Source: a virus. From it: a stretch of DNA of 26,289 nt. Of the stretch, positions 139 to 3,683 are shown one piece after another (the stretch's first letter is position 1; every line of letters begins with the position of its first letter). The notes under the pieces were generated by a model. The model was not told the origin of the DNA. It made no database searches and was given only the letters and a program-made list of their open reading frames with translations. The stretch is taken from the IMG/VR virus record IMGVR_UViG_3300044645_000164, positions 1-26,289 of that record. One strand, 5' to 3'. Made by a program: the position numbers and the translations under genes.

Positions 139-938
139 TTAATCTCCACAAAAACAAGGAATTGCTTCTTCATTTGGATCAAACATATCTGCTTGATTCT
201 TTGTAAATTCCATCATTGCTGAATAAGTTGGCCTATCCTTACTAAAACGACCACCAGCTAATTCCTCTTGTTTTGCCCACCAAATTGCACGTTCTGGCTT
301 TTCTTGAATCATGCTTGCTATTTGCGCAACAGGCTTCATAAAACATAAGTCACAGTTTGAATAGAATCCATTTGTTGGCAATCCAAGATCAAATGAGTTT
401 GTTTCCCAAAAACTTAGAACATCTTGTTTTGTAACCCCTGCATAGACTAATGGAGTCCACTTATCCTTCATTTTGGCAGCTCTATACTGTTCGTCAGCTC
501 TAATTCCAACAGCAGTCTCAAAATCTACAAAATCAATAGACTGTAAGTAAGAATTTATTGGTTTGATTTTTGTATTGACAGTACAAATCCTTTGAATAGA
601 GTTTGGAAGATAAGGTTTTCCATTCTGCCAAATCGACTCTGCAAATGGTTCTCCATTCCTTGATGCCGTTTCAAAAGTAACAACCTTAAAACGATCACTA
701 GGCTTTTCTGCCCATTGATATTCCAACCAAACAATGGGAACATTCCAATGTTCTGAACAATCTTGCACAAATCTCAAAGTGGCCTCATCTTCCTTGCCAG
801 TGTTGGCAAAACAGACAATTGCTTGGTTTGGCAGTTGCCCCCCCCGTTTTGTAATACTTTATGCAACATATATGCACTTGTTCTGCCGCCAGAAAAACTA
901 ATGCAAGTTGGGCTGGTAATTTCAAATGGATTATTCAT
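139..938 (-). CDS. PAPS-reductase-like (PP-loop) phage protein, out of frame at a poly-G tract
   Basis: The gene starts at ATG 938-936, which overlaps the RusA stop as ATGA and has a GAGG ribosome site. The first frame carries the PP-loop ATP-binding motif SGGRTS (residues 16-21), as in PAPS reductase/ATP sulfurylase-type enzymes. After LQN the frame enters eight G (838-845 on the plus strand) and then runs to a stop near position 779. The rest of the protein (CFANTGKEDEATLRFVQDC onward to 139, including GIRADEQYRAAKMK and SNCDLCFMKP) is in another frame. Nine or six G would restore one protein of about 266 residues. The family is common in phages beside DNA-modification and recombination genes; its substrate is unknown. 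As written the protein is broken, and only an internal start would express the C-terminal 212 residues. Sequencing error, mutation and phase variation all remain possible. Confidence 0.8.
838..845. repeat. Poly-C/poly-G tract of 8 nt at the frameshift in the PAPS-reductase-like gene
   Basis: There are eight C on the plus strand, hence eight G in the coding strand. The conserved protein changes frame exactly here: SGGRTSAYMLHKVLQN lies before the tract, QLPNQAIVCFANTGKEDE after it. A tract of 6 or 9 would keep a single frame. Homopolymer slippage is the simplest explanation, in vivo or during sequencing. Confidence 0.85.
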
Positions 939-1530: not shown

Positions 1531-1630
1531 AGTCTCCTGTAAGTTCAAGCGCTCTGAGGATGACAAACTCGCTAAATTGTTGGCCTTCTCTGACCCGATC
1601 AAGAATTCTGTTTGCTTCATAGTGATTCAC
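1394..1630 (-). CDS. Small phage protein MNHYEANRILDRVREG..., GTG start, overlapping the next gene
   Basis: This is a 78-residue ORF with a GTG start at 1630-1628 and a good GGAGA site 7 nt upstream. The N-terminal half (EANRILDRVREGQQFSE, then RALELTGDYE) matches a recurrent short phage protein whose function is unknown. The GTG directly abuts the TAA of the overprinted methyltransferase-frame ORF. The C-terminal 45 residues overlap the WIRRYRKK gene (1351-1530) in another frame, look low in information, and may be only the read-through of a gene that once ended near residue 35. Existence of the N-terminal half is fairly sure; the true end is less so. Confidence 0.55.
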   Translation of the reverse strand: MNHYEANRILDRVREGQQFSEFVILRALELTGDYETHRSNRVDQTLSQESLGGRQGRSPILVATDPSGYCQEARPSGC

Positions 1631-2474
1631 TTAGGATTCTCCAAGCTGTTGCGGCACAAAGGGGGACTTGTCCATTTCCAATGGCTTTAAGTCTGTCCAC
1701 CCTATCGGCCAGCCCATAAGCCACTCGACCCACATTTGGTTCAATTGACCACCATCTTGAGTCGCCAATACTGCTTGAGTAAGACCATTGTGATGATTTT
1801 CCCGTCTCACACGATTTGCTCTGTATTCTGTGCTGAGTGGAGTCGGCCAATTCTGCATATTGCTCACTTGATCCCTTAAATTCGCTGGTTTGCTTCTGCC
1901 AGGTCGAGCTTGAGTCGCTTCTTTGTGCAATGCTTTTGCAGATTTTGGAGGTAGTTTGTCCATTGTCGTAGGTGTTGCCCACTTGTTTTCCGACAATCCA
2001 AATTCTGTCCCTCTGATGGTTTGCTCCAACATCCGCTGCTCCCAACACTCCCCATCTCGCATCAAACCCCATTGAGGCCAAATTTCCAAGAACTCTTCCA
2101 AGTCCCCTAGAAGTGAGCATTGGTGAGTTTTCCACAAAGACAAATCTGGGTCGTACTTCACAAATGATCCTCGCCATTTCGCGCCACATTCCGCTTCTTT
2201 CTCCATCGCTCCCCCCCCCCCCCCCAGCGGCAGAGATGTCTTGGCATGGAAATCCTCCAGATACAACATCAACAATTTGTCTCCAAGGTTTTCCGTCAAA
2301 GGTTTGTACGTCATCCCAAATCGGGAAAGGCGGGAGAAACCCGTCATTTTGTCGGGCGCACAGTACGCTTGCTGGGTAGGCTTCCCATTCGACTGCACAG
2401 ACTGTTCTCCAACCAAGGAGGTGTCCACCAAGTATTCCTCCACCAGCGCCTGCGAAAAGAGCCAACTCATTCAT
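1617..2474 (-). CDS. C5 cytosine DNA methyltransferase, with a G15 tract
   Basis: This 285-residue protein shows the ordered motifs of C5 methyltransferases. Motif I is LFAGAGGG (6-13), and an acidic residue at E29 binds AdoMet. Motif IV is GGFPCQDIS with nucleophile C77. Motif VI is FVFVENSPML (E115), motif VIII is HQRDRIWI (153-160), and the C-terminal motif RVDRLKAIGNGQVP is at 258-271. It transfers a methyl group from AdoMet to cytosine C5, probably protecting phage DNA or marking it. The short segment between motif VIII and the C-terminus is the target-recognition region. Between motifs IV and VI the usual AAGKGxG-like loop is replaced by five glycines coded by fifteen consecutive G. All motifs stay in one frame, so the tract as written is in the ON state. 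The start overlaps the upstream 64-residue gene by 8 nt, with GGAAGG as ribosome site. Confidence 0.9.
   Translation of the reverse strand: MNELALFAGAGGGILGGHLLGWRTVCAVEWEAYPASVLCARQNDGFLPPFPIWDDVQTFDGKPWRQIVDVVSGGFPCQDISAAGGGGGSDGERSGMWREMARIICEVRPRFVFVENSPMLTSRGLGRVLGNLASMGFDARWGVLGAADVGANHQRDRIWIVGKQVGNTYDNGQTTSKICKSIAQRSDSSSTWQKQTSEFKGSSEQYAELADSTQHRIQSKSCETGKSSQWSYSSSIGDSRWWSIEPNVGRVAYGLADRVDRLKAIGNGQVPLCAATAWRILSESL
1631..2470 (-). CDS. Overprinted ORF inside the methyltransferase gene (+1 frame), phage WPTP/WVEWLMG-type protein
   Basis: This 279-residue ORF uses the +1 frame of the methyltransferase over almost its full length. Its ATG overlaps the upstream gene's stop as ATGA. It contains LFSQALVEEYL, SRFGMTYKPLTE, LEDFHAKTS, WKTHQCSLLGDLEEF, WPQWGLMRDGECWEQ, WPTP and LNQMWVEWLMGWPIGWTDL. 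I recognise these as hallmarks of a protein family that is frequent in phage annotations, often labelled DNA methylase or hypothetical. Each hallmark lies over a methyltransferase motif: LEDFHAKTS overlies GGFPCQDIS, and WVEWLMG overlies the C-terminal motif. It may therefore be a true second gene or a frame kept open by the protein constraint above it. Its TAA touches the next gene's GTG. No function can be assigned. Confidence 0.45.
   Translation of the reverse strand: MSWLFSQALVEEYLVDTSLVGEQSVQSNGKPTQQAYCAPDKMTGFSRLSRFGMTYKPLTENLGDKLLMLYLEDFHAKTSLPLGGGGGAMEKEAECGAKWRGSFVKYDPDLSLWKTHQCSLLGDLEEFLEIWPQWGLMRDGECWEQRMLEQTIRGTEFGLSENKWATPTTMDKLPPKSAKALHKEATQARPGRSKPANLRDQVSNMQNWPTPLSTEYRANRVRRENHHNGLTQAVLATQDGGQLNQMWVEWLMGWPIGWTDLKPLEMDKSPFVPQQLGES
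2211..2225. repeat. Poly-C/poly-G tract of 15 nt inside the methyltransferase gene
   Basis: Fifteen C on the plus strand encode five glycines (residues 84-88) of the methyltransferase, and also five glycines in the overprinted frame. The tract is far longer than chance and at a length that slips readily in bacteria. Losing one G would join the methyltransferase N-terminus to the overprinted C-terminus. Both frames are open on both sides, so slippage gives chimeric proteins. Confidence 0.9.
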
Positions 2475-2663: not shown

Positions 2664-3077
2664 TTATTTCCTTAGTTCTGCAAGTTTGGCTCGGATGTGA
2701 TCTGGCATCGGTGCAGCCTTTTTGTGGTCAGCTTGAATCTTTGCCAAAGCGGGGTCAATTGTGGGTTTCAGCTTGATTTCAGGCACTTCAGCGCCATCCC
2801 ATCGTTGTTGGTTGAGATAGACCTTGGGGGCGGGAATAAATGCCCCGTTGTCTTTCAACCAGGCGGCTGTGGTTGCCATCCATTGAACGTGTTTAAGGAT
2901 GATGTGCTTTTGACTGAAGTAATAGGATTCAACCCATTTTTTCTTGCAAGCAGCTTTTTCGCCTTTGCGTTCACATTTGGGATAAGCCACCCAAAATTCT
3001 TCAAAACCTTCATCAGTTAAAAAATGCTTTTGAGGTTGTTCAAACCCAAATAAATCCATTGTTTTTTCTTTAGGCAT
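2664..3077 (-). CDS. Replication-associated protein, C-terminal-domain type (FEEFWVAYPK)
   Basis: The segment TDEGFEEFWVAYPKCERKGEKAACKKKW followed by FIPAPKVYLNQQRW is the typical C-terminal module of phage replication initiators and primosome loaders (lambda O/DnaT-like, YdaU-type): an aromatic FxxFWxxYPxK motif, then a PxxYLNQxRW motif. The N-terminal DNA-binding domain such proteins usually carry is missing, so this 137-residue protein is short for the class. I chose ATG 3077 because GGAG lies 5 nt upstream. The frame is open to an ATG at 3128 (154 residues), but that start has no clear ribosome site. Its place after cro matches that of lambda O. It may recruit host helicase or loader to phage DNA, which is inference. 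Confidence 0.65.
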   Translation of the reverse strand: MPKEKTMDLFGFEQPQKHFLTDEGFEEFWVAYPKCERKGEKAACKKKWVESYYFSQKHIILKHVQWMATTAAWLKDNGAFIPAPKVYLNQQRWDGAEVPEIKLKPTIDPALAKIQADHKKAAPMPDHIRAKLAELRK

Positions 3078-3089
3078 AGGTTCTCCAAG

Positions 3090-3104
3090 GGTGGATATAC
3101 CACC
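3090..3104. promoter_or_regulatory. Perfect palindrome GGTGG-n5-CCACC in the leader of the replication-type gene
   Basis: The plus strand reads ggtggatataccacc, with arms of 5 nt and a 5-nt AT centre. It lies 13 nt upstream of the preferred ATG (3077) and just upstream of its GGAG site. It could be a dimer operator or an mRNA hairpin affecting translation. No second copy was noticed. Confidence 0.3.
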
Positions 3105-3149
3105 TTTCTCCATCGATTTGTTTTCCATAATTCATCTTAATTCAGCTAA

Positions 3150-3244
3150 CTAAAAACAAAAGCGACCAAGTGCGCTTGACGGGTCAATTCACTTATAGAT
3201 TGGGCCTTGTTCCACCGTTGTACCCAATCCTTTACCAGTCGCTT
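3150..3244 (-). ncRNA. Possible second structured RNA segment with U-rich end
   Basis: On minus-strand RNA the segments at 3244-3238 (AAGCGAC) and 3166-3160 (GUCGCUU) pair perfectly, and three further G-U wobbles extend the stem to about 10 bp. Those wobbles would be A-C mismatches on the other strand, which favours a minus-strand RNA. Inside are GAUUGGG/CCCAAUC (3229-3223 with 3204-3198) and UUGA/UCAA around 3187-3176. The stem is followed by UUUUGUUUUU. The stretch between this and the stronger RNA candidate (3245-3345) shows only short hairpins such as ctgacggtcag at 3332-3342. This may be the 3' part of one longer RNA, or a terminator region before the replication gene. Confidence 0.35.
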
Positions 3245-3348
3245 AACCAACGCTGGTCGGCAAGTCAGGGGGTGTGTCCTGTTGTCGGTGTTTCTTGGGT
3301 TCAGTCCATGCAGACCATTTGCTAACGCGCCCTGACGGTCAGCCAAAA

Positions 3349-3505
3349 AGCAAAAAACCCCATAAATCACTCTGCGGTCTTGGCTCTTGGCGAGAGCAAC
3401 AACAAACGATTGAAACCAATCAAAAGTTCGCCTGTTGTCAGGCAAGACCGCACAGAAATCTATGGGGTTCGCAATTGGTTTCGTTCGCCTGATGCCACTC
3501 AGACG
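3349..3505 (-). ncRNA. Candidate structured noncoding RNA: promoter, four-way junction, U-tract
   Basis: Minus-strand RNA from about 3505 would form a 27-position stem between 3469-3443 and 3382-3356, with 23 Watson-Crick pairs, 2 G-U wobbles and 2 mismatches. The wobbles become A-C mismatches on the other strand, so the strand is supported. Inside are three hairpins: GCCUG/CAGGC (3443-3430), GAUUG/CAAUC (3421-3408) and GCUCU/AGAGC (3397-3383). The leader GAAACCAAU (3482-3474) can pair over 9 nt with 3420-3412 inside the junction, a crossing (pseudoknot-type) or alternative pairing. GGGGUUUUUU ends the stem like an intrinsic terminator. GCGAAC occurs three times. A TTGACA/TATAAT promoter lies immediately upstream. 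The 130-residue ORF across this region starts with TTG on the -35 box and is not convincing. I do not recognise the RNA; an HK022 put-like antitermination element is one possibility. Confidence 0.6.
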
Positions 3506-3511
3506 ATTTGG

Positions 3512-3538
3512 ATTATACATACTTTTCCTATTTGTCAA
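3512..3538 (-). promoter_or_regulatory. Sigma70 promoter for the candidate RNA
   Basis: The minus strand has TTGACA (3538-3533) and TATAAT (3517-3512), both perfect consensus hexamers, with a 15-nt spacer that is 2 nt shorter than ideal. Transcription would start near 3505. The -35 lies in the last codons and stop region of cro, so this promoter sits between cro and the downstream early genes. Confidence 0.65.
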
Positions 3539-3683
3539 ACCACTCAGGTTTTAGGATCATCAATTGATACAAACGCCCCGTTGGGATCATCTTCCAATTG
3601 TGTACTGCTGCCCTGGTGATGCCCAAGATGCGAGCAAGCTCACTCTGTGAGCCAGCCAATGTGATAGCTTTTTGTTTGTCCAT
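3528..3683 (-). CDS. cro: Cro-like helix-turn-helix regulator
   Basis: This 51-residue protein starts MDKQKAITLAGSQSELARILG. Residues 12-31 (SQSELARILGITRAAVHNWK) form a clear helix-turn-helix, followed by IPTGRLYQLMILKPEWF, the short tail typical of small Cro/YdaS-like repressors. Such proteins bind operators between divergent early promoters and shut off early or repressor transcription. The frame is open upstream to 3794, but that 37-residue extension is unlike the family and covers the promoter. An extended -10 (TGC-TATACT) ends 6 nt before this ATG, so translation probably starts on a leaderless mRNA. It sits at the centre of divergent early operons. No CI partner is visible in the window. 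Confidence 0.85.
   Translation of the reverse strand: MDKQKAITLAGSQSELARILGITRAAVHNWKMIPTGRLYQLMILKPEWFDK

Follow-up and report, generated by a model that had tools for sequence, protein, structure and literature searches.

What occupies the interval between a cro-like gene and a replication gene in an uncultivated virus, and what might it do there? The window, i.e., the whole stretch of DNA that was analysed, is the whole of an uncultivated virus record of 26,289 bases, and its genes include those for a P22-type coat protein, a Sak annealing protein, a YqaJ/RecE-like exonuclease, RusA, and a C5-cytosine methyltransferase. A sequence-only reading had placed in this interval a possibly new RNA gene or antitermination element. 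The proposal was supported as far as sequence can show, on the basis of a fixed promoter-hairpin spacing, covarying helices including a crossing one, a U-run, the lack of a coding frame, and the lack of an Rfam match. On comparative grounds, the element (RNA1) is regarded as a genuine and previously unlisted RNA gene, and it is shown to be conserved and structured on the minus strand. The features of the locus are as follows.

3528 to 3683, minus strand: cro-like regulator (P22_Cro / YdaS family), the gene upstream of RNA1
3512 to 3538, minus strand: RNA1 promoter, with TTGACA (3538-3533), a spacer of 15, and TATAAT (3517-3512)
3352 to 3508, minus strand: RNA1 (family I), about 155 nt; covariance model R1 match of 185 bits, folding z of -8.6, covariation
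3352 to 3357, minus strand: U-run after GGGG, the intrinsic-terminator-like 3' end of RNA1
3166 to 3340, minus strand: RNA2 type B, a second structured noncoding element of about 175 nt, directly after the RNA1 U-run
2664 to 3128, minus strand: replication-initiation-like protein (PHROG 9474 and 270), the first gene downstream of RNA2

Promoter, ends, and fold of RNA1

The perfect minus-strand TTGACA and TATAAT hexamers with their 15-nt spacer, as first described, were confirmed as the sole TTGACA/TATAAT site with a spacer of 15-19 in the window (0.02 expected in shuffles), and the -35 hexamer was located inside the last cro codons. The 5' end of RNA1 is predicted near 3506-3504. Among 153 RNA1 homologs, the -10 box ends 12-14 nt ahead of a GUGGCA loop in 152, a perfect TATAAT is present in 115, and a -35 box with at least four of six matches in 106. 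The 3' end is GGG followed by at least four U in all 153; in most homologs CCCC/GGGG forms the base of the main stem (P1), followed by the U-run ahead of the operon, which is the layout of an intrinsic terminator or attenuator leader. The putative promoter and the terminator-like end are both conserved, signals that a small regulatory RNA with a discrete transcript might also show.

Folding of the minus strand over 3340-3510 gave -77.5 kcal/mol versus -45.4 in shuffles (z -8.6), and none of 200 shuffles was as good. The plus-strand fold was weaker (-58.9 kcal/mol, z -4.9), as predicted by the G-U pairs from which the strand had originally been argued. The long stem reported as 27 positions with 25 pairs was recovered as 25 positions with 23 pairs, or 27 with 25 when the basal AA-UU is counted, and is followed by GGGGUUUUUU. 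On the other hand, the four-way junction with three hairpins was not borne out, since the conserved core consists of a three-way junction (P1, P2, P3) and a separate 5' hairpin (P0). The first inner hairpin of that model, GCCTG-ACAA-CAGGC, was rejected: it is found in the closest relatives only and excludes P2, the helix backed by homologs. Three copies of GCGAAC are indeed present in the window, but they are not conserved among homologs and are therefore regarded as incidental. The 9-bp crossing pairing of the leader, GAAACCAAT (3482-3474) with ATTGGTTTC (3420-3412), has become the best-supported new element. As judged from the alignments, the conserved RNA1 core is made up of P0, the pseudoknot, P1, P2, and P3.

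3486 to 3505, minus strand: P0, 5' hairpin with the invariant hexaloop GUGGCA; 6 of 7 pairs vary with compensation, 99.6% of cells paired
3473 to 3482, minus strand: pseudoknot strand a, GAAACCAATT; covariation, run of at least eight pairs
3443 to 3467, minus strand: P1 5' strand, main (terminator) stem; 23 pairs, 10 of them changed on both sides, 99.1% of cells paired
3428 to 3437, minus strand: P2 5' strand; 95.7% of cells paired, 3 pairs changed on both sides
3412 to 3421, minus strand: pseudoknot strand a', GATTGGTTTC, inside the P2 loop; run of at least eight pairs with strand a in 152 of 153
3400 to 3409, minus strand: P2 3' strand, same basis as its 5' strand
3383 to 3397, minus strand: P3 hairpin, GCUCU-CGCCA-AGAGC; nearly invariant, with one compensatory change (L145)
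3358 to 3382, minus strand: P1 3' strand, same basis as its 5' strand

P0 has 7-9 pairs in most homologs, and variants of the P3 loop with AUGCCA exist. A second kissing contact, between UGGC of the P0 loop and GCCA of the P3 loop, is possible; the two are complementary in RNA1 families I and III (see below), but invariant.

Homologs, covariation, and coding potential

Homologs were collected by two routes: viral contigs with relatives of the replication or Sak protein, whose RNA was then compared by blastn, and a scan for a 23-nt RNA1 core (TGYTCTCGCCAAGAGCCAAGACC). By the former, 62 loci matched over 150 nt or more, corresponding to 41 distinct sequences with flanks and 34 when trimmed to the RNA (alignment A1), and the latter matched at least 120 viral stretches, giving 153 distinct RNA1 cores in all. 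Because P3 and part of P1 lie inside the core pattern, their invariance is partly built into the larger set; it was the same in the blastn set, which had been gathered without the pattern. The homologs, well over a hundred sequences, come from environmental phage contigs, mostly freshwater; family I was not found in named phage and plasmid records, and the exact core pattern was absent from 84,980 GTDB genomes. In a search of 36 whole records, 30 had an R1 match, of which 28 contained one strong family-I locus each, any weak second match being an opposite-strand shadow; of the others, one (L142) scores as family III and one was marginal only (E 0.002).

Covariation in related phages, which the sequence-only reading had named as a check, was present. 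In A1 (34 sequences, aligned without fitting to the structure), 141 paired cells were changed on both sides, compared with 41.6 +/- 7.3 in shuffled and at most 28 in slid controls, and in A4 (100 sequences aligned by a covariance model lacking the crossing helix) 682 were, compared with 220.6 +/- 17.0 and at most 132, although both kinds of control ignore descent. The double changes in A1 fall at 17 pairs, six of them in the crossing helix. Overall, 97.3% of the cells in A4 were paired; within the crossing helix the figure was about 90-95%, and a single position there shows as many as six pair types.

That the structure arose by chance, or that a coding region happens to fold in this way, is hardly credible. 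A 130-codon frame is open across 3146-3538 on the minus strand of the window; however, it is interrupted by stops in 123 of the 153 homologs, homolog lengths differ modulo 3, no PHROG match was found for the frame, and the stems covary. A coding gene is contradicted by the stops and the covariation, so that it is the stems and not an open reading frame that are conserved, in line with what the original proposal required.

A hypervariable pseudoknot

A register-free check detected a self-complementary run of at least eight pairs in 152 of the 153 RNA1 sequences. When pseudoknots of different types were compared with each other, the best run was mostly 5-6 pairs; approximately one quarter of these comparisons also reached at least eight pairs, many of them between similar types. 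On a 100-sequence tree built without the pseudoknot columns, the mean number of changes per site was 19.8 for the pseudoknot, 5.8 for P0, 4.7 for P2, 3.1 for P1, and 0.4 for P3, i.e., letter changes in the pseudoknot outnumber those in the other variable helices about 3- to 6-fold, a count that misregister in this variable-length region and recombination may inflate. Some near-identical RNAs differ mainly here: TGAACGGAAT/ATTCCGTTCA in L199 and TGAAAATACT/AGTATTTTCA in L206 are both fully matched pseudoknots, with three differences elsewhere between the two RNAs, and such pairs of RNAs, with 3-4 differences elsewhere, have pseudoknots 4-5 positions apart with the pairing kept. Pairing that varies so strongly and yet stays matched is suggestive of a specificity element. 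At the same time, P2 and the pseudoknot together are about as long as P1, from which we infer that an intramolecular fold-back is favoured. Whether the fast-changing, matched pseudoknot is a structural clamp only or a specificity code is a testable question.

RNA2 and exchangeable RNA1 families

RNA1 itself was upheld; its partner RNA2 and the RNAs that can be swapped into its place had been missed by the earlier reading. For RNA2 type B, RNAalifold on 35 homologs gave 38 pairs, 23 of which show compensatory changes. RNA2 has at least three sequence types: A (L257, L271), the commonest, B (the window), and C (L182). Downstream of 167 distinct family-I loci, type A was observed in 123, type B in 30, and sequence not assigned by pattern in 14. 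RNA1 precedes all 150 RNA2 elements of types A and B that have at least 330 nt upstream (144 identified by pattern and six by eye, all six belonging to family II), and RNA1 families and RNA2 types occur in mixed combinations.

The RNA1 families are exchangeable and share one plan, namely a hairpin, a long-range pairing, and a terminator. Close relatives without family I have another RNA of like plan between a similar promoter and RNA2. Family II (about 105 nt) occupies the place of family I, with a 5' hairpin, a 7-bp kissing pair, and a terminator in that order, and has no detectable sequence similarity to it; its kissing pair changes with compensation (GTAGGAA/TTCCTAC, GTGAGAA/TTCTCAC, GTGGTAG/CTACCAC, GTGGAAA/TTTCCAC, GTAACGG/CCGTTAC). 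Family II together with RNA2 type B is present in a complete circular genome, MW202484. Family III (L142, L285) aligns to the family-I model over its full length (46.8-49.5 bits, E 4e-10 and 8e-11) and retains the GUGGCA and GCCA loops, and by this alignment it is a distant homolog of family I. These data point to a general cassette of promoter, knotted self-terminating RNA, second RNA, and operon, whose RNA parts are swapped between phages yet kept together.

In GenBank, the hypothetical protein UOF77725.1 has been annotated over the family II RNA1 and RNA2 region of this circular genome (L392 3034-3393; MW202484.1 33533-33892), and it is probably not a real gene.

Genomic context

Most RNA1 copies follow cro-like or other early genes and precede a replication gene. 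Other RNA1-RNA2 copies are located after the large terminase gene (Terminase_6N, E 5.7e-26 in L168) and ahead of genes for large proteins, one of them polyvalent-type. Wherever examined, RNA1 and the downstream gene share a strand. The interval from RNA1 to that gene showed no conserved promoter, and operon expression therefore seems to need transcription through RNA1.

In early as well as terminase contexts, RNA2 type A is often followed by a gene for a small zinc-ribbon protein (CxCGG...CxxC) with weak similarity to Zn_ribbon_IS1595 (about 288 nt past the RNA1 core in L271; also in L192, L245, L255, L263, and L170). About 36 of the 167 loci have this gene, but no type B locus does, and it is thus not a general partner.

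Relation to known RNAs

Rfam 15 was scanned at gathering and relaxed thresholds. No family was detected in the window, the best match for RNA1 being the trpB motif (17.8 bits against a threshold of 59, E 3.7), and RNA2 types A, B, and C had no match. No description of RNA1 was found in the open-access literature searched. PMC2864571 lists 'Burkholderiales-1', which has no Rfam accession there. RNA1 would represent a noncoding RNA common among environmental phages, mostly those of freshwater, with very strong covariation and no entry in Rfam.

The put RNA of phage HK022 acts through the beta' zinc-binding domain of RNA polymerase to suppress termination. Put elements of about 70 nt with two stem-loops are present in two copies per genome and suppress termination, putR lies downstream of PR, and no pseudoknot is mentioned for them (PMC9378689). 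Like put, RNA1 is a structured RNA encoded in cis that follows an early phage promoter and precedes early genes; unlike put, it has about 155 nt, P0-P3 plus a pseudoknot, a U-run end, and one locus per record. Location downstream of an early promoter holds for RNA1 here, and elsewhere RNA1 follows a terminase gene. On the features testable here (size, fold, and built-in terminator), RNA1 as a put element was ruled out.

In phage lambda, the 6S RNA / PR'-tR' leader consists of a promoter, a short untranslated RNA, and a terminator, followed by the operon, and involves Q protein acting at a DNA site. The layout of promoter, short RNA, terminator, and operon is shared by RNA1; in contrast to 6S RNA, its fold is conserved, covarying, and pseudoknotted, and no Q-like gene was identified. 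In P4 CI RNA immunity, CopA/CopT, and ColE1 RNA I/II, short complementary and fast-changing RNA segments set specificity. RNA1 has short complementary, fast-changing segments as well, with the difference that both are in one RNA. IsrK of prophage Gifsy-1 uses one promoter to produce a short terminated RNA, which acts in trans on translation, and a read-through mRNA for downstream genes (PMC4825925). The logic proposed for RNA1 is similar (one promoter, a terminator-made small RNA, and a read-through form), although the Rfam scan found no sequence or structure relation to IsrK. GOLLD and ROOL are ornate phage noncoding RNAs with conserved kissing contacts, one of them from lakes, and many GOLLD RNAs exceed 800 nt (PMC12286853). 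RNA1 is likewise an ornate phage noncoding RNA; its assignment to GOLLD or ROOL, which are far larger, was rejected, as their Rfam models matched no stretch tested.

Possible roles of RNA1

Our main reading, to which we give a probability of about 0.5, is that RNA1 is a self-terminating leader RNA that gates its operon, by a mechanism that we infer as follows. Transcription would start at approximately 3505, P0 forming before P2, and strand a would pair with the P2 loop ahead of synthesis of the 3' half of P1. P2 would then fold back alongside P1 (P2 plus the pseudoknot has about 20 pairs and P1 about 23), so that the long-range terminator stem could close quickly and the polymerase would stop at the U-run, yielding a stable RNA of about 155 nt. 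Some polymerases would read through into RNA2 and the operon, here the replication protein and DNA methyltransferase genes, and the operon would be gated by how often the polymerase stops or reads through, which would depend on formation of the pseudoknot and P1, with RNA2 acting in cis on the read-through transcript. The covariation, fixed promoter geometry, U-run, RNA1-RNA2 coupling, and single locus per record are counted in favour of this leader, as are family II, with its like plan at the place of family I, the distant homolog family III, and the lack of a conserved promoter ahead of the downstream gene. Counted against it are that a terminator loop holding about 100 structured nt is unusual, that a strong promoter and terminator would equally suit a free small RNA, and that a plain attenuator does not require a hypervariable pseudoknot. 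A further point against it is that no conserved antiterminator pairing exclusive with the RNA1 fold was seen by non-systematic inspection; the GCCTG/CAGGC hairpin excludes P2, but is unconserved among homologs.

An active small RNA can also be set free by a self-terminating leader, as in the case of IsrK, and the possible readings therefore overlap. RNA1 might be a stand-alone trans-acting small RNA or a protein-binding RNA, i.e., a moron-like RNA gene, with RNA2 serving only as leader to the gene that follows. The promoter and terminator of RNA1 itself, a 5' end buried in a hairpin as is typical of stable small RNAs, invariant loops (GUGGCA, CGCCA) resembling binding sites, and its occurrence in more than one operon context fit such a role, which we consider possible but doubtful given that neither type A nor type B of RNA2 was seen without RNA1 despite the mixing of families and types, and that each record has one locus, on the strand of the downstream gene wherever examined. 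It is rather unlikely that the RNA1-RNA2 unit functions as a put-like antitermination element, in which the nascent RNA modifies the polymerase to pass operon terminators. The position between cro and the replication gene matches that of nutR/tR1 and putR in lambdoid phages (PMC9378689), the unit is promoter-proximal to the operon, and the role could reside in RNA2, where no conserved terminator was seen; however, a terminator-like U-run ends RNA1 in 153 of 153 homologs, the opposite of what is expected of an antiterminator, the size and fold of RNA1 differ from those of put, and the unit also follows the terminase gene in other phages.

The variable pairing could also act between molecules, so that a resident phage, through its RNA1, would shut the operon of an incomer of the same type by pairing with that incomer's nascent RNA1 (immunity or exclusion). 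The approximately 20 changes per site in the pseudoknot, far above the values for P0-P3 and with complementarity kept, the near-identical RNAs with different and still paired pseudoknots, and the varying kissing letters of family II would all be expected from such self-recognition, but free drift of a stem whose letters are irrelevant would look similar, and the geometry fits an intramolecular pseudoknot. Moreover, lysogeny is doubtful because neither a repressor nor an integrase was noted among the genes of the window and a scan of bacterial genomes by exact core pattern gave no copies, and we regard the idea as very unlikely. A combined form, in which the pseudoknot is a recognition code that gates the operon in cis and blocks co-infecting phages of the same type in trans, with RNA2 as the effector part, is held to be quite unlikely.

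Additional observations

The sole GTDB relative of the Sak protein that was found lies on a phage-like contig in a Burkholderiales MAG, without convincing RNA1, and gives a weak hint of the host of these phages. On this contig (L396), positions 2838-2943 of the plus strand give a weak R1 match (20.5 bits, E 0.002). This stretch precedes an HNH endonuclease gene and has a terminator-like stem, with CTAGTA/TACTAG as a possible leader pairing; the element, for which no Rfam match was found, may be another RNA of the RNA1 plan. In the window, two overlapping same-strand frames of about 280 codons at 1617-2474 (minus strand) both match DNA methyltransferase PHROGs (frame 1, phrog_363, E 1.8e-65; frame 2, phrog_1008, E 7.8e-19), a similar pair is present in L196, and either overprinting or a frameshifted gene could account for them. 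A PAPS-reductase-like gene at 139-938 (minus strand) is split, and because its two parts, 777-938 (N-terminal) and 139-777, match consecutive portions of phrog_424 in different frames, it appears to be frameshifted or misassembled.
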